Assembly (NCBI RefSeq): GCF_028368855.1 | Contig: NZ_JAQNCY010000005.1 | Coordinates: 62,001 to 126,000 of the forward strand | Source: Leisingera sp. SS27 | Lineage (GTDB): Bacteria; Pseudomonadota; Alphaproteobacteria; Rhodobacterales; Rhodobacteraceae | Direction: 5' to 3' | DNA: 64,000 nucleotides | Shown here: positions 4,128-60,034 of the stretch, piece after piece | Numbering within the stretch: position 1 is the stretch's first letter | How the letters are laid out: every line of letters begins with the position of its first letter | Program-made: the position numbers and the translations under genes | The notes under the pieces: model-generated | Told to the model about the DNA's origin: nothing | What the model saw: only the letters and a program-made list of their open reading frames with translations | Database searches by the model: none

Positions 4128-5489
4128 TCAGACAGTCAGGCTTCCAGTCACCATGTCCCGCACCTTGACCGCGTAGCGGTCCGTCATGCCAGAGACGAAA
4201 TCCGCCAGCGAATGCATGGCGGTATAGGCATCCTCCACTCCGCGCAGGTCGAGGTCCACTGCGCGGATCAGCTGCGCCCAGTGAGAATGCTGCTTGGCCA
4301 GCACTGCCTGATCCCAGCCGCAGGCGGCAAGATCGGTGTAAAGCTCATGAAAGTGGCCGAGGATGCAGTGCAGCACCTGGCGGCCCGCAACCTCCAGTTC
4401 TGTCTTGCGGCGCGCGGCAAAGATGCGTTCCACCGACAGGCGCTGCAGTTCGGCAAAGGCGTCCGCCTTGGATGAAGCGCCGATCAGGTCGCCGTCGAAC
4501 TCGCCGCTCATGATGGCGTCGTAATTGTCGAGGAATGCCTGCACCGCGGCGCTGGTGGCGGCACCGATGGAGAGCGCGCGCAGCAGGGCGACACGCTCAC
4601 CCAGCGGCATCGCGGCGTCTTCCTCGCGGTTGCGCTTGCCGGTGATGTCTTCCAGCACCGCAGCCACATCGGCGCGGTCCAGATCGCCCACTGCACCTGC
4701 GTCCTCGATATCCATGATCCGGTAGCAGATGTCATCGGCGGCCTCGACCAGGAAGGCGAGCGGGTGGCGGCGGTACCAGCCTGCGCTTTCGCGGATCATG
4801 CCGGTGGCGCTGCAGATTTCATCGAGCAGCGCCGTGTCGGAAGCAAAGACGCCGAATTTCTTGAGGCCTGCATATGGCGCCGGGCCGTCGCCGCAAACGG
4901 CATCGCGCACCTGGCGAGTGCAGGGGTATTTCAGGAAGGCACCCAGCGTCGCATAGCTGAGCCGCATGCCGCCCTCGCGCCGGGCCATTTCCAGCCGCCC
5001 GGCGATGCGCAAACCTTGCGCGTTGCCCTCGAAATGCGCGAACTCGGCCTGGCGGTCTGCCGGGATCCGGGCGGCCAGCCCTGCGCCTGCCTTGAACTGC
5101 GCGGCGAACCAGCCGCCGATGCTGTCCTCGCCGGAATGGCCAAATGGCGGGTTGCCGATGTCGTGGAGCAGGCAAGCGGATTGCACATGGCCGGCAATGC
5201 GCAAGACCTGATCCGGGTTGATGCGTCCTTCCTTCAGCAAAGCCTGGCCGACACTAGAGCCCAGCGAGCGCCCGACGCTGCAAGTCTCCATGCTGTGGAT
5301 CATCCGGTGATGCACATGGTCGTGGCTGTAGAGCGGATGCACCTGGGTTTTCTGTGCCAGCCGCCGGAACGGCTCAGAGAACAGGATGCGGTCATAGTCC
5401 TGCAAATAGGCCTCGCGCCCCGGGGCCTCGGGATACTCCGGCCGGCACAGCCGCCCCGGGTTCAGCAGCCTGTTCCACTCCATCGCCAT
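4128..5489 (-). CDS. Deoxyguanosinetriphosphate triphosphohydrolase-like protein (HD domain)
   Basis: Predicted dNTP triphosphohydrolase of 453 residues that would cleave dNTPs to deoxynucleoside and triphosphate. The metal-binding HD-superfamily residues are visible: H61-R62 in HVHHRMIHSMET and H109-D110 in LLHDIGNPPFGHSGE, with the family stretch RLAQKTQVHPL at about 43-53. The length and motifs match the shorter dGTPase-like proteins common in alphaproteobacteria rather than Escherichia coli Dgt (about 505 residues), so true substrate preference is uncertain. It stands alone on the minus strand and converges on pckA. Confidence 0.93.
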   Translation of the reverse strand: MAMEWNRLLNPGRLCRPEYPEAPGREAYLQDYDRILFSEPFRRLAQKTQVHPLYSHDHVHHRMIHSMETCSVGRSLGSSVGQALLKEGRINPDQVLRIAGHVQSACLLHDIGNPPFGHSGEDSIGGWFAAQFKAGAGLAARIPADRQAEFAHFEGNAQGLRIAGRLEMARREGGMRLSYATLGAFLKYPCTRQVRDAVCGDGPAPYAGLKKFGVFASDTALLDEICSATGMIRESAGWYRRHPLAFLVEAADDICYRIMDIEDAGAVGDLDRADVAAVLEDITGKRNREEDAAMPLGERVALLRALSIGAATSAAVQAFLDNYDAIMSGEFDGDLIGASSKADAFAELQRLSVERIFAARRKTELEVAGRQVLHCILGHFHELYTDLAACGWDQAVLAKQHSHWAQLIRAVDLDLRGVEDAYTAMHSLADFVSGMTDRYAVKVRDMVTGSLTV

Positions 5490-5552
5490 GTGCCTGCTCC
5501 TTTGCCTGTCTGAAGGCGGTTAAACGGGAGGCGGCAGGGAATTGCAAACGCT

Positions 5553-6467
5553 TCAGTGCGGTTTGATCCCCGCAGGCTCCAGCTTGTGCTCCGGCTCCAC
5601 GTGAATCACCACTTGCGCCTCCGGCAAGGCGTCCCGGAGGGCAATCTCGATCAGGTCGCAGATGCCATGCGAGGCCCGCACCGTCATGGCTCCATCCACC
5701 ACCAAATGAAACTCGATAAACAGCGCGCGGCCTGCCCGGCGGGTCTTGAGGCCATGCACCTGCAGCGCGCCTGCCGCCATGCGTTGGATTACCGCCTCGA
5801 TTTTCCGGCGCTCCTCTTCCGGTGCGGCGGTGTCCATCAGTCCGTTCACGGATGCGGCGATCACCAGCCAGCCTTCGCGCAGGATGTTGACGCCGACCAG
5901 CAGCGCCAAGAGCGGGTCAAGCACCGCCCAGCCGGTGGCAAGCGCCAGCACCAGCCCGGCCAGCACACCGGCAGAGGTCCAGACGTCGCTCATCAGGTGG
6001 CGTCCGCCGGCCGACAGCGCCGGTGATTTCAACCGCCCGCCTGCGCGCAGCAGCACCCGCGCCCAGGCCAGGTTCACCAGCATCGCCAAACCGTTGACCA
6101 CCATGCCGGCAGCCCCCCAGCCAGGATCGCCTGCGCGGGCCAGCGCGCTGAAAGCCTCATGCAGGATCACCAGGGCCGCAATCACGATCAGGATGCCCTC
6201 GATCACGGCTGAGAAGTATTCGGCCTTGTGGTGGCCGTAGGGGTGGCCTGCGTCCGGAGGCCGCTGGGCATAGCGCACCGCAAACCAGGCCATCACCGCG
6301 CCGCCGATGTTCACCAGCGATTCCAGCGCATCCGACAGAAGCGCCACGGAGCCGGTCATTTGCCAGGCGGCCACCTTCAGCGCCATCACTGCCAAAGCGA
6401 TAAGGATGGAGCCGGTTGCCAGCTGTTCTGCACTGAGCCGTTGCTGCATGCTGCCCTGCCCGCCCAT
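5553..6467 (-). CDS. Cation diffusion facilitator family metal transporter
   Basis: Inner-membrane divalent cation/proton antiporter of 304 residues with six predicted membrane helices and a C-terminal cytoplasmic domain. Family marks include SDALESLVN in TM2, the charged loop HPYGHHKAEYFSAVIEG, and HLMSDVWTSAG in TM5, where H and D are expected metal ligands. The start ATG overlaps the TAA of the upstream TauE-like gene (TAATG), so the two are translationally coupled. The metal (Zn, Fe, Mn or Co) cannot be decided from sequence. Confidence 0.93.
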   Translation of the reverse strand: MGGQGSMQQRLSAEQLATGSILIALAVMALKVAAWQMTGSVALLSDALESLVNIGGAVMAWFAVRYAQRPPDAGHPYGHHKAEYFSAVIEGILIVIAALVILHEAFSALARAGDPGWGAAGMVVNGLAMLVNLAWARVLLRAGGRLKSPALSAGGRHLMSDVWTSAGVLAGLVLALATGWAVLDPLLALLVGVNILREGWLVIAASVNGLMDTAAPEEERRKIEAVIQRMAAGALQVHGLKTRRAGRALFIEFHLVVDGAMTVRASHGICDLIEIALRDALPEAQVVIHVEPEHKLEPAGIKPH

Positions 6468-7234
6468 TACATCAGAACGCCGCGGCGCAGCAGGTTCAAA
6501 CCGGCGATCAGCAGAACCACCAGAGTTGCGCGGCGGAACAGCACCTGATCGATCCGGTCATGCAACTGCCCGCCGATCCACATGCCCGCCACCGCCGGCA
6601 CGATCAGCGCCAGCGAAAAGGGCGCGGTCTCAGCCCGGATTACGCCGGACCCGATGTGCGCCACCAGCAGCGCCACCGCGCCAAGGCCGTAGATCACCCC
6701 CTGCACCCGGATCTGTTCGGTTTTCTCAGTGTTCAGAGCGGTCAGGTAAGCCACGGTTGGCGGTCCCCAGACACCGGACACACCGCCGATCAAGCCCGCA
6801 ATGCCCCCCACCATCGCCTCGCTGCGGCGGGAGGGATTGGCGTTGGTGAATGTCTTGCCCATCAGCTGGATGCAGGCAAAGACAGTGACCGGCAGGCCAA
6901 TCACCAGCAGCAGCGCCTGCTGCGGAAGCAGCCGCACCATCTGGGCGCTGAGCAGCAGGCAGACCAGGCCGATCAGCAGAAACACGTGGAACTTGCGGAT
7001 CGATGCCATGGCCGCCGCAGGCCCCTGCCGCAGGGCTTGCATGCCGTTTGTCACCAAGGTGGGCAGAACCAGCCCGGCCAGCGCCAAGTCCGGCGCCAGA
7101 AACATGCTGAGGCCGGAAATGAAGATCATCGGCATGGCAAAGCCCACCAGGCCTTTGACGGTGCCCGCCAGCAGCGCGATGCCAAAGGCCGCTGCCAGCT
7201 CTGCCGGGGAAAGAAGCGAAAACAATGCGGTCAT
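6467..7234 (-). CDS. TauE/SafE family sulfite/organosulfonate-type permease
   Basis: Polytopic membrane protein of 255 residues with about eight hydrophobic segments. The paired family signatures are seen: GTVKGLVGFAMPMI near the N-terminus and GGIAGLIGGVSGVWGPPTVAYL at mid-protein. The family moves sulfite, sulfoacetate or related anions across the inner membrane, but many members have unknown cargo. It is the first gene of a two-gene unit with the CDF transporter (one-base overlap). Confidence 0.88.
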   Translation of the reverse strand: MTALFSLLSPAELAAAFGIALLAGTVKGLVGFAMPMIFISGLSMFLAPDLALAGLVLPTLVTNGMQALRQGPAAAMASIRKFHVFLLIGLVCLLLSAQMVRLLPQQALLLVIGLPVTVFACIQLMGKTFTNANPSRRSEAMVGGIAGLIGGVSGVWGPPTVAYLTALNTEKTEQIRVQGVIYGLGAVALLVAHIGSGVIRAETAPFSLALIVPAVAGMWIGGQLHDRIDQVLFRRATLVVLLIAGLNLLRRGVLM

Positions 7235-51676: not shown

Positions 51677-52429
51677 ATGAAGAAGATCGGCATTCTCGGC
51701 GGCGTCGGCTGGGCCTCCACTCTCGATTACTACCGCGCCATTTGCGAAGGCGCCGGGCGGTTCTTTGCAGAGCGCGGCGCGGGCTCACCGCTGCCGGTGC
51801 CGCCGATCACCATCGAATCCGTGGTGCAGGCGCAAACCCGCGCCTTGCGCGGCCGCCCGGGGGATGAGGCAAGCTGGGCCGCTTTTGATGCCGTCTTCCG
51901 CGAGGCGATGCTGACGCTTGAACGCGCCGGCTGCGATTTCGCCCTGATCGCCTCCAACACCCCGCACGCCCGCCTGCATGCGATCCGCGAGGGCGTGGTG
52001 ATGCCGATCCTCAGCATCTTCGACGCCACCGCGGAAGCCACCGCTGCAACCGGTGCCGCCCGCGCACTGGTGCTGGGCACAACAGTCACCATGCAGGCCC
52101 GCAACTATTCCAGCGTGCTCGCCGCACATGGGGTCACAGCAAATGAGACCCTGCCGCAGGACGAGATCGCTGAAATGCAGATGATGATCGACGAAGATTT
52201 CTACGGCGGCGCATCGGCCACCGCACAGGACCGCCTGCTGCGGTTCTGCGCGAAACACGCCCAGCCTGGCACCGCCATCCTGCTGGCCTGCACCGAACTG
52301 CCTCTGGCCTTCCCCGGTCACATCGACGACGTCAGTTTCGAGGCCGGCGGCTTCCTGTTCGTGAACCCTTCGGCCGCCCATGTCACCGCAGCGCTGGATC
52401 TGGCGCTGGCGGACGAAAAGGCCGGTTAG
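51677..52429 (+). CDS. Aspartate/glutamate racemase family protein with Ser in the first catalytic position
   Basis: Protein of 250 residues with the racemase core GILGGVGWASTLDYYR, IASNTPHARL and ILLACTELPLAF. In typical aspartate or glutamate racemases both catalytic residues are Cys; here the first is S93 while the second, C205, is kept. A Thr/Cys pair is known in the E. coli L-specific broad-spectrum racemase YgeA, so this may be a similar one-sided enzyme. Converges with the YbaK gene by 4 nt. Confidence 0.9.
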   Translation: MKKIGILGGVGWASTLDYYRAICEGAGRFFAERGAGSPLPVPPITIESVVQAQTRALRGRPGDEASWAAFDAVFREAMLTLERAGCDFALIASNTPHARLHAIREGVVMPILSIFDATAEATAATGAARALVLGTTVTMQARNYSSVLAAHGVTANETLPQDEIAEMQMMIDEDFYGGASATAQDRLLRFCAKHAQPGTAILLACTELPLAFPGHIDDVSFEAGGFLFVNPSAAHVTAALDLALADEKAG

Positions 52430-52953
52430 ACCCAGCGCACCTCAACGCCGATGCGCTCAAAGAACGCCATCACGTCATCGCGCTTCATCGCCACCGTGCG
52501 GTCATTGACCAGCGGGTGCATATAGATCACGTCCGCCTCCTGCGCCTGCGCATCCATATAGAAGGTGACGCCCTTCCCAGCGCCAGTGATCATCGCCAGC
52601 GGGCTGACCGCGCCGGGACGGATGCCGAGATTCTCCAGCAGCCGGTCGGCAGAGCCAAAGGACAGGTTGCCGATGTCCAGTTCTGCGCCCAGCGCCTTCA
52701 GGTCGATCTCCCGGTCCTGCTGCAGCGTCACCAGGTAGTTCCGCTTCTTCTTGTCCCGCAGGTACAGGTTCTTCAGCCGCAGCGCGTTTTCGCCCGGCAC
52801 CATGAACTGCGCCTCGACACCCTTGGCATCCACCACCGTGCGCAGCGGCACATGGGTATGCAGCTGATAGGCAATGCCCCAATCATCCAGCTGCTTCAGC
52901 AGCGCATCCGAGGAGATGGGCAGGCTGTCCTGATAGGCCGATGACGCATCCAT
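52426..52953 (-). CDS. YbaK/ProX-type prolyl-tRNA deacylase domain protein
   Basis: Free-standing editing-domain protein of 175 residues that hydrolyses mischarged aminoacyl-tRNA (e.g. Ala-tRNA(Pro)). The pattern YQLHTHVPLRTVVDAKGVE, KNLYLRDKKKRNYLVTLQ, GNLSFGSADRLLENLGIRPGAVSPLAMI is typical of the ProX/PrdX group; K86 in the RDKKKR region is a probable catalytic/binding Lys. ATG 52953 is chosen; the residues before it are non-homologous. Confidence 0.9.
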   Translation of the reverse strand: MDASSAYQDSLPISSDALLKQLDDWGIAYQLHTHVPLRTVVDAKGVEAQFMVPGENALRLKNLYLRDKKKRNYLVTLQQDREIDLKALGAELDIGNLSFGSADRLLENLGIRPGAVSPLAMITGAGKGVTFYMDAQAQEADVIYMHPLVNDRTVAMKRDDVMAFFERIGVEVRWV

Positions 52954-53093: not shown

Positions 53094-55001
53094 TCACGCC
53101 TCAGCGAAATCCGCCCGCCGTGCCTCCTCGTAGTGGTCGAAGTCGGTGCTGAACCAGCCGGTGCCGCGGGTGGCGCTGGCCAGGGTGCTGCACAGATCAT
53201 CCTGCGCCGACATCGGCAAGAGCGTCTCGAACACGTCCCAGCCCGCGACGCCGTCCTCGGCCTCGAACCCCAGGATTTGCCCCTTCATGCCGCTCACCAC
53301 CGGCACCAGCCCGCCGGTGAACACCGACGGCACATGGATATGCACCCGCATGATCGGCTGCAGCAGCACCGCACCGGCTTCTGCCAGCGCCTCCTTCACC
53401 GCGTTCTTGCCAGCGGTCCGGAACGCATAGTCGGAACTGTCCACCGAATGGTGCTTGCCATCCTTCAGGGTCACGCAGATATCCACCACCGGATGGCCAT
53501 TGAGGCCCAGCGCCAGCGCCTCGCGCGCGCCCGCCTCGACCGAGGGGATGTAGTTCTTAGGCACCGCGCCGCCCTTCACGGTTTCCTCGAACACGAAACC
53601 GCTGCCGCGGGGCAAGGGCTTCACCTCGATCACCACATCGGCGAACTGGCCGGCGCCGCCCGACTGCTTGCGGTGCCGGTGATGCACCTGCACCGCTTTC
53701 TTGATGGTCTCGCGCAGAGCCGGCGGCACCGGCGCCTCCTCCACTTCGACGCCGAACTCATCCTTCAGCGCTTGCTTGATCCGCCGCATATGCAGCGGCC
53801 CCTGCAGGTTCAGCAGCACATGGCCGCTGGCTTCATCCTGGCCCAGCACCAGCGCCGGGTCGATTTCCGCCAGCCGCTCCAGCGCCGTGGACAGCCGGGC
53901 GTCATCACGCTCGTTCACCGGCGTGATCACCCGCCGGAAGGTTGAGGGCCGCGGCTGCGCCCACTCCGGCAGCGGTGCCGCGCCATCCGGCCCGTAGGCA
54001 AAGCCGAGGTTCAGGTGGTCGGATTTCACCGCCTGCCCCATATCGCCTGGCGTCAGGCTTGTATTGGCGGCCGAACCGACGCCAGTCAGCGATCCCAGCG
54101 CCGCACCGCCAACCGGCACGCCGTTGCCGACACTGCCGTCCAGCGCGCGCACCATCACTGTCTTGCCCAGATGCTTGACCAGATCCGCCATACAGCCGAC
54201 CGCCGTAACGCTGCCGTCCTGCGACAGCCGTTCCAGAGCCGCCCCCACATCCGGCGCTTCATGGCGCAGCGACTTCATCAGCCGCAGGATCCCGTTCTTG
54301 TGCTCCGCCGATCCCATCAGCGCCGGGATCAGGTCGTTGTGCTGCAGCACCTTGGTGGCCACCTCATAGGCTTCCTCGGCCATCACCTGCTGATCCTCGA
54401 TCAGCTCCTCCAGCAGCGTGTCGTCAAAATCCGCCAGCGCCTCCAGCAGTTCGGTTCGGGCTTCCTGTTCGCGCGCGTACATGGCAACCGGCAGCTCGAT
54501 CAGCGCCGAAGGCTTGCCTTCCTGATACTGCCAGGCGCGCTCGGAAATCAGATCCACAGCACCCACAACCTGTCCATCCTCGCGGATCGGCACCTGCCGC
54601 AGGATGATGTTGTGGCTGCAATAGGCCTGAAGCGCAGCAACGATCTCCGCCACCCGGTCCGCCGCCTGGTCCATGCGGTTGACAAAAATAAAGGCGGGGA
54701 CCCCCGCCTCCTCCAGCTTGCGCAGGTACGGCGCGCTCAGCACCGCAGCGCCGGCGTCAGCCGGAACGCAGAGGACGGCAGCATCACTGGCCGCCAGCGC
54801 CGGACCCGCCTGCGCCAGATTGTCAGCACCGCCCGCGATGTCGATCGCAGCCCAGTCCTCGCCCATAAATGAAAAAGGCTGCAAAGCGGCGACGCCTGCA
54901 ACCTCCTGCCGCTTGCCTGCAGCGCTGTCCAGATTGGCCAGCGCCGAGGCCAGCGTTGATTTGCCGGACTGCGACGGTCCCAGAATAGTGAAAACGCGCA
55001 T
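53094..55001 (-). CDS. Divergent elongation factor G-like protein with altered GTPase motifs
   Basis: EF-G paralog of 635 residues, shorter than true EF-G (about 700). The P-loop GPSQSGKST (8-16) and a G4 NRMD (108-111) are kept, but the G3 motif expected as DTPGH reads DIAGG (54-58), so the catalytic His is lost, and the switch-I RGIT motif is not found. Domains II to V are recognisable (domain IV with GGAGQFADVVIEVKPLP and FVEE-like FVFEETVKGGAVPKNYIPSVEAG; domain V with GLVPVVSGMKGQILGFEAE). It may bind GTP without hydrolysing it well, or act in recycling, tetracycline-like protection or another ribosomal task. No neighbouring ribosomal gene suggests a specific role. Confidence 0.9.
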   Translation of the reverse strand: MRVFTILGPSQSGKSTLASALANLDSAAGKRQEVAGVAALQPFSFMGEDWAAIDIAGGADNLAQAGPALAASDAAVLCVPADAGAAVLSAPYLRKLEEAGVPAFIFVNRMDQAADRVAEIVAALQAYCSHNIILRQVPIREDGQVVGAVDLISERAWQYQEGKPSALIELPVAMYAREQEARTELLEALADFDDTLLEELIEDQQVMAEEAYEVATKVLQHNDLIPALMGSAEHKNGILRLMKSLRHEAPDVGAALERLSQDGSVTAVGCMADLVKHLGKTVMVRALDGSVGNGVPVGGAALGSLTGVGSAANTSLTPGDMGQAVKSDHLNLGFAYGPDGAAPLPEWAQPRPSTFRRVITPVNERDDARLSTALERLAEIDPALVLGQDEASGHVLLNLQGPLHMRRIKQALKDEFGVEVEEAPVPPALRETIKKAVQVHHRHRKQSGGAGQFADVVIEVKPLPRGSGFVFEETVKGGAVPKNYIPSVEAGAREALALGLNGHPVVDICVTLKDGKHHSVDSSDYAFRTAGKNAVKEALAEAGAVLLQPIMRVHIHVPSVFTGGLVPVVSGMKGQILGFEAEDGVAGWDVFETLLPMSAQDDLCSTLASATRGTGWFSTDFDHYEEARRADFAEA

Positions 55002-55278
55002 GTTCTCAGATCCTCCCTTAGCTGATGCGGCTGCCCGCCAAGGTGCGCGAACCCTTCGGTTCGCGTGAACTGCCTGCGCTGAAGATCTGCCTCACGGCTC
55101 TTTCGAGCCGGCCCATCCGCTGAGTGATTGGCGTTGGGCCACCGTTTGATGTTGGCCAGCCACCCGCGCCCGTGTCAAGCGCGCAGAGGGTGTAGCGGCG
55201 GGCCCCCGCGCACGATTTTTGACGCAACCCGTGCCGATTTCCCCTCCCTCCCGCCTTTCCCTGGGGTAAGCTTGAATT

Positions 55279-58132: not shown

Positions 58133-58684
58133 ATGCAGCTCCCCGCCATCCCTCAGCTCGAAACCGAACGCCTGGTCCTGCGCGGACCGGAGGCGGCGGA
58201 CTTCGGGCCGGTGGCAGCGTTCTTCGCGGACGAAGCACGCTCCTGGGGGTTCGGCGGGCCGCTCGACCGCAACGAGGCCTGGCGCTGGTTCACCATGTCG
58301 GTGGGCCACTGGGCGATGCGCGGCTTCGGCTTCTGGACCATCACCTGCAAGCAGACCGGCGAGGCGCTTGGCATCACCGGCGTCTGGCAGCCCGAAGGCT
58401 GGCCCGAACCTGAACTGGGCTGGGTTGCCTTCCCTGCAGGCGAAGGCCGCGGCATCATGGCAGAGGCCGCACTGGCCGCTCGCACCCACGCCTATGAGGT
58501 GATGGGCCTGCCTGCACTTTGCTCCAACATCTTCCCGGGCAATACCCGCTCGGTGGCGCTGGCCGAACGGCTGGGCGCAGTGTTCGAGGCAGAGTTCGAC
58601 AACCCCAAACACGGGCGCGAACTGGTCTACCGCCACCCCGCGCCCGTAACGCCTTGCGACGGCGGAATGGAGGCCTACGCATGA
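58133..58684 (+). CDS. GNAT-family N-acetyltransferase (first of three tandem paralogs)
   Basis: Acetyl-CoA-dependent acyltransferase of 183 residues of the RimJ/RimL type. N-terminal IPQLETERLVLRGPEAADF, central VGHWAMRGFGFWTI and the acetyl-CoA loop region FPAGEGRGIMAEA, with NIFPGNTRSVALAERLGA near the C-terminus. Three nucleotides follow ffh before this start, and its stop overlaps the next GNAT gene (ATGA). Substrate unknown; related proteins acetylate ribosomal protein N-termini. Confidence 0.92.
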   Translation: MQLPAIPQLETERLVLRGPEAADFGPVAAFFADEARSWGFGGPLDRNEAWRWFTMSVGHWAMRGFGFWTITCKQTGEALGITGVWQPEGWPEPELGWVAFPAGEGRGIMAEAALAARTHAYEVMGLPALCSNIFPGNTRSVALAERLGAVFEAEFDNPKHGRELVYRHPAPVTPCDGGMEAYA

Positions 58685-59370
58685 CCTCCCGTCAGTTCAC
58701 CGTGCCCGGCTTAACGAAAAATTACGCAGTCTCCCCGATACTCCTTCACCGGATGGGTGAAATTGACACCGGGCGGCCTGCCGCCCGGGCAATGGGGTAT
58801 GACATGAAAGACGCGCAAAGGCAGTATCCTAGGCTGGCCTCCAAGCGGCTAATGCTGATTTCTCCGGCGGACCCGGAGTTTGACGCCCAGGCGGCCTTCC
58901 TGGCGCCGGACGCGCCGCGTTTCATCAATGTTGCAGATGATGCCGATTCGCTGTGGTGGTCGATTGCTACCATCATCGGCCACTGGCACCTGCACGGCTA
59001 CGGCCTGTTTGCTGTGCTGGAGCGCAGCACCGGCCAGACTGTCGGCCTGGTTGGCCCCTGGTTCCCCAAGGGCTGGCCGGAACCGGAATTGTCCTGGCAC
59101 CTGATGGAAACCGGCGAGGGCAAAGGCTATGCCAGCGAAGCTGCGCAATGCGTGCTGGACTGGCTGTTCACGGTGGCTGGCTGGGACTCGATCGTTTCCT
59201 ACGTGCCAGAGGAAAACAAAGCCTCCATCGCACTGGCCCGCCGGGTTGGCGCACAGCCGGAAAGGACCGTCTCCTTCCGCCTGCAGCCTGCCCCGAACAT
59301 CCGCGCCTGGCGTCACCTGCCGTCTGCCCGCGGCGGGCATACCCGGGATGCACGGGGGTTGCTGCACTGA
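58681..59370 (+). CDS. GNAT-family N-acetyltransferase (second paralog, atypical N-terminus)
   Basis: Acetyltransferase-like protein of 229 residues. It shares with its neighbours WHLHGYGLFAVLERSTGQ and FPKGWPEPELSWHLMETGEGKGYASEA, then SYVPEENKASIALARRVGA. The first 40 residues lack similarity to the others and are encoded across a stable hairpin (58769-58789); ATG 58792 or 58804 are alternative starts. The ATGA overlap with the first paralog supports 58681. The core acetyl-CoA loop GEGKGYA is intact. Confidence 0.82.
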   Translation: MTSRQFTVPGLTKNYAVSPILLHRMGEIDTGRPAARAMGYDMKDAQRQYPRLASKRLMLISPADPEFDAQAAFLAPDAPRFINVADDADSLWWSIATIIGHWHLHGYGLFAVLERSTGQTVGLVGPWFPKGWPEPELSWHLMETGEGKGYASEAAQCVLDWLFTVAGWDSIVSYVPEENKASIALARRVGAQPERTVSFRLQPAPNIRAWRHLPSARGGHTRDARGLLH

Positions 59371-59431
59371 TGCGCCCGGCATCCGTCATATCCCAGCGCC
59401 ACCGCGCCCTTCCGCAGGAAGGAGCGCGCTG

Positions 59432-60034
59432 ATGCCGTTTGACATCCCGGTGATCGAAACCCGCCGCCTGGAACTGCGCGGCCCCGAAGCGCAGGACTAC
59501 CCTGACTTCAAGGCCACCTTCAGTTCCTACCGCTCGCGTTTCATGGGCGGGCCTCTGAACACATATGAGGCCTGGATGCTTTACGCCGCAGAGATCGGCC
59601 ACTGGCAGGTCCGCGGTTTTGGCATGTGGATGATCCACGACAAGGCAAGCGGCGAGACCTACGGCATGGCCGGCGGCTGGCAGCCCGCGGGCTGGCCGGA
59701 GCGCGAGATCGCCTGGATCATCTGGCCCGGCGCGGCCGGCAAGGGCTACGCGCTGGAGGCAGCACATGCCGCCCGCCGCCACTTTTATTCGGAACTGGGC
59801 TGGGAGACGGCGGTCAGCTATATCGACCCGAAGAATCTCGACTCGATCCGGCTCGCGGAACGGCTCGGCGCCACCAAGGACCATGGTGCCGCCACCATCG
59901 ACGGCAACGATGCCGTCTACCGCCACCCCGCGCCGGACGCCCTGAAGGACAGCCAGATTGCCCATGGCATCGACATGGAAATCAGCCATTACGCCGATCC
60001 GCTCTTCAAACCGGAGGGCTGGGCCATTGACTGA
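59432..60034 (+). CDS. GNAT-family N-acetyltransferase (third paralog)
   Basis: Acetyltransferase of 200 residues, closest in architecture to the first one: IPVIETRRLELRGPEAQDY, IGHWQVRGFGMWMIHDKASG, IIWPGAAGKGYALEAAH, SYIDPKNLDSIRLAERLGA. ATG 59432 has a strong GGAAGGAG. The C-terminal tail of about 35 residues is additional. The three genes probably arose by tandem duplication between ffh and the rpsP operon. Confidence 0.9.
   Translation: MPFDIPVIETRRLELRGPEAQDYPDFKATFSSYRSRFMGGPLNTYEAWMLYAAEIGHWQVRGFGMWMIHDKASGETYGMAGGWQPAGWPEREIAWIIWPGAAGKGYALEAAHAARRHFYSELGWETAVSYIDPKNLDSIRLAERLGATKDHGAATIDGNDAVYRHPAPDALKDSQIAHGIDMEISHYADPLFKPEGWAID

Follow-up and report, generated by a model that had tools for sequence, protein, structure and literature searches.

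The question raised by this locus is what an EF-G-like protein can do on the ribosome when its G domain has no switch-I segment of the usual kind. The gene lies on the minus strand of the window (the whole 64,000-nucleotide stretch of Leisingera sp. SS27 DNA that was analysed), exactly at 53094-55001 as first annotated, with an ATG at 55001, a stop at 53094 and 635 codons. A Shine-Dalgarno-like AGGGAGGA can be read from the sequence at 55011..55018 (minus strand), ending nine bases upstream of the ATG, and is a plausible ribosome-binding site. The open reading frame is a genuine gene, and Leisingera sp. ANG1 carries a protein that is 98% identical to its product.

Pfam reports GTP_EFTU (from residue 51 only), EFG_III, EFG_IV and EFG_C on the 635-aa protein, and no Pfam model is reported for domain II. 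The nucleotide-binding motifs, all on the minus strand, begin with the G1 motif or P-loop, GPSQSGKS (residues 8-15; 54957..54980). It is followed by the remnant of the switch-I loop (residues 24-37; 54891..54932), from which, in the alignment, RGIT and about 18 residues are gone. The G3 motif is DIAGG (D54-I-A-G-G58; 54828..54842), which is compatible with the generic GTPase pattern DxxG, the G4 motif is NRMD (residues 108-111; 54669..54680), and GSA was read in the alignment as G5 (residues 230-232; 54306..54314). Domain IV (EFG_IV, 3.2e-37) covers residues 429-542 (53376..53717) and contains the tip residues Gln446 and His518. A structure prediction built on 14 sequences was of low confidence (pLDDT 57.7, pTM 0.34); its G-domain part, in which the P-loop is succeeded by a helix, a short loop and then strands, agrees weakly with the alignment.

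The same genome encodes a canonical EF-G of 705 aa with AHIDAGKTT, RGITI and DTPGH, located in the str operon beside rpsL, rpsG and tuf (neighbours recognised by eye). The 635-aa gene lies outside that operon and is indeed a second EF-G, as the original prediction had proposed. The two proteins are 39% identical over residues 357-626, and the spacing from G1 to G3 is 38 residues in the 635-aa protein but 67 in the canonical one.

Profile scores place the protein within a defined family. NF009379 (PRK12740.1-3, named 'elongation factor G') matches residues 1-628 with 736.9 bits, above its curated cut-off of 513. The canonical EF-G model TIGR00484 (289.4 bits, cut-off 659.4), the Bacteroides EF-G2 model NF058620 (228.2 bits, cut-off 1000) and the EF-G2 model NF009377 (278 bits, cut-off 890), which we take to cover the actinobacterial type of EF-G2, all score below their cut-offs. 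A tetracycline ribosomal protection protein is ruled out by a score of 178.4 bits against the cut-off of 775 for NF012153. In the class sample, 226 of 385 genomes have a match above the NF009379 cut-off; the number of true relatives is smaller, because this cut-off is also passed by second, lower matches that are presumably ordinary EF-G (547 bits in genome G233). Together with the match in G331, the 635-aa protein is the lowest-scoring full-length NF009379 match in that sample.

This family assignment points to EFG II, described by Margus and colleagues as a fast-evolving subfamily with a sub-subgroup of alpha-proteobacteria and Cyanobacteria (PMC3150367). According to that account, EFG II genes lie outside the str operon in genomes that also have EFG I, and some alphaproteobacteria received theirs by transfer from Cyanobacteria. 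The P-loop of EFG II is reported to have Gly where EFG I has Ala and to be closed by Leu; RGITI is relaxed, while a G2 Ser/Thr (exceptionally Gly), G1, a G3 of the form DxPG, G4 and G5 are conserved (PMC3150367). The 635-aa protein resembles this description in its locus, in the presence of a normal EF-G, in the absence of RGITI and in its P-loop, where Gly8 and Leu17 stand against A and C in the genome's EF-G (Leu is found in 46 of 47 close relatives of the same short form); it also groups with EFG II and not with EFG I. However, its switch I is deleted rather than only relaxed, the G2 Ser/Thr is not kept in the short forms, and DIAGG stands where DxPG is expected. By its motifs the protein is a derived EFG II variant and not a typical member, since two of the features of the subfamily (G2 Ser/Thr and DxPG) fail.

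The short form was followed through the family, the order and the class. A search of 295 family genomes at E <= 1e-100 gave a match in 58, of which 47 gave alignments starting at residue 1 or 2 with 45-100% identity, nine carried a longer type at 37-40% identity and two had fragments only. None of the 58 had both the short and the longer type at this threshold. In the order sample, a profile of 14 close relatives had matches at E <= 1e-170 in 45 of 292 genomes, every one of which belongs to the same family. The benefit of the short-form gene must be conditional, because 237 of the 295 family genomes had no match at E <= 1e-100.

The alignment used for all comparisons holds 97 proteins: 47 short forms, 45 long forms, four intermediate forms and the genome's EF-G. 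Family rows came from 56 of the 58 matching genomes, G564 (two fragments) and G529 (one fragment) being left out. The 40 homologues from outside the family are the 30 best-scoring and 10 low-scoring full-length proteins, a biased choice from about 140 matches above 600 bits (hand count). All 47 short rows come from the family search, so that restriction of the clade to one family means that none of the 40 aligned outsiders fell within it.

The loss of switch I is common to the entire clade. The G1-G3 spacing is 67 residues in the EF-G, compared with 55-57 for the long forms, 44 for the intermediate forms and 37-38 for the short forms. Eighteen switch-I columns with residues in the EF-G and the long forms have none in any of the 47 short rows, which bears out the original observation that the switch-I RGIT is missing. 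An artefact or a frameshift was rejected as the cause of the gap, and chance or a sequencing error is unlikely, since the gap is common to 47 genomes and lies in a protein with low dN/dS. The G2 Thr position is Ser/Thr in 38 of the 45 long rows and Gly in the other seven.

The other part of the nucleotide pocket on which the original prediction had drawn was G3, and DIAGG does replace the DTPGH of the genome's own EF-G. All 49 long and intermediate rows keep the G3 Pro, as opposed to 11 of the 47 short rows (six early branches included); the remaining 36 are without it. The last letter of G3 is G in 40 short rows, S in six and A in one. The G3 His is found in none of the 96 aligned homologues (47 short, 45 long, 4 intermediate), and the His position of the 49 long and intermediate rows is occupied by S (42), A (5), N (1) or L (1). 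RGIT occurs in the printed alignment only in the genome's own EF-G. Close relatives with a clear DTPGH and RGIT were thus looked for and not found, and for this reason a changed GTP cycle in the 635-aa protein is likely on the alignment.

A quick tree was made from domains II-V only, with the switch region excluded. The short forms occupy one side of a branch with an SH-aLRT of 100 in this tree, in which 31 of 94 inner branches have values under 80 and the outgroup, one EFG I protein, is a single long branch. The nearest rows to the short forms are long alphaproteobacterial forms, and the genome's EF-G is a long branch away; the EFG II rows are all from within the class, with zero cyanobacterial rows. 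When rooted on the genome's EF-G, the short forms are sister to all long and intermediate forms and are not nested among them. One change explains the distribution of short and long forms on the tree, and the alignment and tree indicate that the loss of the 18 switch-I residues is a single event in the lineage of the short clade.

The order of the two losses can also be read from this tree. The first-branching short rows (six, L075-L080) keep DxPG, as DCPGS or, in L075, DCPGA, and the other 41 form a group with an SH-aLRT of 100, although the branching order among the six is poorly supported. This places the switch-I deletion first and the change of G3 to DxxGG later, as judged from the rows available. 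The G3 Pro needs two changes on the tree, best read as one loss and one return, the latter in a group of five. Four proteins from outside the family (L095, L096, L098 and L099) have a switch-I gap of about 12 residues and keep the G3 Pro. Since the gap of these intermediate rows is smaller and they branch in another part of the tree, where support is weak, switch I was probably eroded more than once.

The changes in the G domain are accompanied by continued constraint. A comparison with 11 named relatives gave dN/dS values of 0.03-0.17 overall and 0.006-0.26 in two G-domain segments, with dS near saturation in the more distant pairs. These 11 were drawn from a set of 22 loci, of which L122 (partial) was left out and L119 (frameshifted) was aligned with X at stops and unscored, so that values were obtained for 11 of the other 20. 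Domain II had the highest dN in 10 of the 11 pairs. The dN/dS of 0.03-0.17 shows that the short-form protein is, by this sequence measure, under constraint, and a pseudogene is ruled out by the same values. That the gene is a decaying remnant of a duplicated EF-G is therefore very improbable. Its patchy distribution and eroded motifs would suit such a relic, as would a frameshifted copy in Pseudophaeobacter leonis, but the protein aligns over nearly its full length in 47 genomes, a plausible ribosome-binding site is present, and the G-domain segments are mostly as constrained as the whole, the exception being the G1-G3 segment, which is looser against L104 and L113. The frameshift in P. leonis (L119, match 5001-6931) falls early in the G domain and is an apparent recent loss or assembly error.

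Constraint is distributed unevenly among the domains. Conservation was counted over the 83 columns in which the 45 long forms are at least 95% invariant and agree with the genome's EF-G, a column being scored as kept when at least 90% of the short rows retain it. The short rows retain 28 of 30 such columns in domain IV. For the G domain the counts are 5 of 10 between G1 and G3, where one further column falls in the gap, and 15 of 21 outside that stretch; domains II, III and V retain 3 of 5, 1 of 5 and 7 of 11, respectively. Among the 24 columns scored as lost, some show conservative substitutions (Thr to Ser, or Leu or Val to Ile) and some are barely below 90%. In EF-G, domain III lies against the switch regions. 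Both tip residues, Gln446 and His518, are present in all 47 short rows and presumably correspond to E. coli Q507 and H583, which we take to be critical for translocation. In the long forms, too, domain IV shows the greatest similarity of all the domains, and it is reported to be conserved in EFG II generally (PMC3150367), so its retention is not specific to the short clade.

These data bear on whether the protein translocates at all. In mitochondria and Borrelia, duplicated EF-Gs are described as having divided into a translocase and a recycling factor (PMC3832671), and the 635-aa protein could likewise be a recycling, rescue or hibernation factor, as the original prediction suggested. It would then bind 70S ribosomes that are empty or stalled and split them, clear them or cap them, but would not translocate. 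The patchiness of the gene, which makes it inessential to most of the family, and the change of most domain III columns common to the long forms and EF-G are in keeping with such a factor. The retention of both translocation residues of the tip in every short form speaks against it, as do the flanks, which gave no widely shared neighbour of any kind (clusters were named by eye and not by family search), and we regard this role as rather unlikely. The full conservation of the domain IV tip would fit a translocation-like role at least as well as recycling, rescue or hibernation.

Whether GTP is still hydrolysed is a separate matter. About 39 residues from P-loop to G3 are enough for a working Ras-like GTPase, so the 38-residue spacing leaves room for a minimal switch loop. 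The 635-aa protein might then be a working but weak GTPase in which the shortened loop serves as a minimal Ras-like switch I and in which DxxG and the P-loop suffice for slow turnover. Such an enzyme is favoured by the retention of the P-loop Lys (Lys14; 46 of 47 clade members), the DxxG Gly (all 47) and the G4 Asp (all 47); the G4 Asn is present in 46 of 47. The loop itself is less accommodating, since Ser/Thr occurs at any one position of residues 24-37 in at most 14 of the 47 short rows and 12 of 47 have none there at all. The DxxG Asp, present in 45 of 47 aligned members, is Glu in the other two and in five of 21 further named relatives (L113, L114 and L116-L118; one of the 21 is unreadable), and one member has no P-loop Lys. 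A weak but working GTPase is accordingly an unlikely reading, more so than a recycling role. The member without the Lys, L043, has Asn in its place and NGTD as G4, and from these motifs may have lost nucleotide binding itself.

The absence of the catalytic His decides less than was first supposed. The original prediction had argued from it, together with the missing RGIT, that GTP hydrolysis is probably weak or changed; a changed GTP cycle stands as likely, with the switch-I deletion as the stronger evidence, but the argument from the missing His is unsettled. Thermus thermophilus EF-G-2 (1WDT) has DAPGY, with Tyr for His, and ribosome-dependent GTPase activity has been reported for Thermus EF-G-2 (PMC3832671). 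In one study of E. coli EF-G, H91A slowed ribosome-stimulated hydrolysis only about sevenfold and affected Pi release more severely, whereas in earlier work described there H91A was completely inactive and H91E about 100-fold slower (PMC4532990). The view that a missing His proves an absence of hydrolysis was rejected on these grounds, which also lend the weak-GTPase reading some of its appeal. The missing His alone is weak evidence because its loss is shared by the long relatives (0 of 49 have it) and by Thermus EF-G-2, which is reported to be active. The Thermus protein is, like the 635-aa protein, an EFG II member without the G3 His, but in the alignment it retains the switch-I segment, and it has reported GTPase activity.

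The preferred reading, to which we give a probability of roughly 0.45, is that the 635-aa protein is a nucleotide-binding relative of EF-G without a normal GTP switch, which would use domain IV to act on ribosomes and would show little ribosome-stimulated hydrolysis or none. The genome's second EF-G would then belong to a lineage that is sister to the long alphaproteobacterial EFG II forms and that appears to have lost switch I in one deletion, after which the G3 loop would have drifted. The sequence largely preserves the P-loop, the DxxG Gly, the NKxD-like motif and G5, and the domain IV tip completely; the aligned switch-I segment is gone together with a conserved Mg-binding Thr/Ser. Guanine nucleotide would thus probably still be bound, but GTP binding could not order a normal switch I on the ribosome, and for that reason ribosome-stimulated hydrolysis would be absent or very slow. 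The protein would enter the A-site side of the ribosome as EF-G does and either promote movement of the tRNA-mRNA or hold a post-translocation-like state, driven by binding and not by hydrolysis. The essential job is covered because the canonical EF-G is encoded in the str operon of the same genome, and the short form may assist, without being essential, when canonical EF-G or GTP runs short, probably by translocating or by stabilising a translocation-like state under slow growth.

A more far-reaching version of this reading, which we hold only tentatively, is that the clade represents a naturally constitutively 'on' or nucleotide-insensitive translocation factor, in which the GTP switch was dismantled and the translocation tip of domain IV was kept. 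If so, EF-G relatives of this kind could be used to separate the work done by EF-G binding from GTP hydrolysis. Whether GTP hydrolysis by EF-G is needed for tRNA/mRNA movement or only for exit from the ribosome is described as debated (PMC12775393), and a natural EF-G that is without switch I across a clade but has the domain IV tip would be a direct test object in that debate. A graded series is available for comparison: the long form, the 12-residue gap found elsewhere on the tree, the 18-residue gap with DCPGS, and DxxGG.

Precedents for EF-G paralogues of unusual GTP cycle exist in other lineages. The GTPase-less EF-G2 of Bacteroides is cited as enabling GTP-independent translation and as being induced by carbon limitation (PMC10294740, PMC12775393 and PMC6989115). 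This paralogue (fusA2; NF058620) accompanies a normal EF-G and has an impaired GTP cycle, as is proposed for the 635-aa protein, but it belongs to another family model (228 bits against a cut-off of 1000), and the precedent, taken from descriptions in citing papers, is by analogy only. Mycobacterium smegmatis EF-G2 is also a second EF-G, for which no ribosome-dependent GTPase activity was seen according to a later account (PMC3832671), but it too is of a different type, as the NF009377 score indicates. Among pseudo-GTPases, the resemblance of the 635-aa protein would be in a reduced GTP cycle, and these proteins are unrelated or distantly related to it and have other partners. Ski7 keeps a GTPase fold while its GTP cycle is reduced or lost. 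The same has been reported for CENP-M (PMC4080450). A switch-I-deleted EF-G clade was not found described in the literature searched, the coverage of which leaves out many subscription papers.

The surroundings of the gene vary with lineage. The downstream neighbour (52426..52953, minus strand, with an inner ATG assumed as the start) encodes a YbaK/ProX-type aminoacyl-tRNA editing protein (Pfam tRNA_edit). It lies beside the gene in Leisingera-like loci only (L001, L035-L037, L101-L119 and L122), and the 43 other short loci L038-L080, as well as L120 and L121, gave no match to it at E <= 1e-10 within flanks of roughly 1.5-5 kb, or less where a contig ends. One locus with the Leisingera-like gene order, L111 (JAHVJD010000009.1), carries a gene for a protein with 86% identity. 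Among the 25 largest clusters of flanking ORFs, those found were lineage-level and none was widely shared; the best by locus count were an opposite-strand cluster of doubtful reality (15 of 49 non-short loci) and an MsrP-like cluster (named by eye; 13 of 49). At the class level, some long-form EFG II genes are flanked by ORFs that resemble, by eye, aspartate aminotransferase, MsrP and Dps (10-13 of 49 loci), and a stress context for these long genes is possible. Elsewhere in the window, at 58133-60034, three GNAT-like acetyltransferase ORFs lie in a row after ffh, the first recognised by Pfam and the others by eye.
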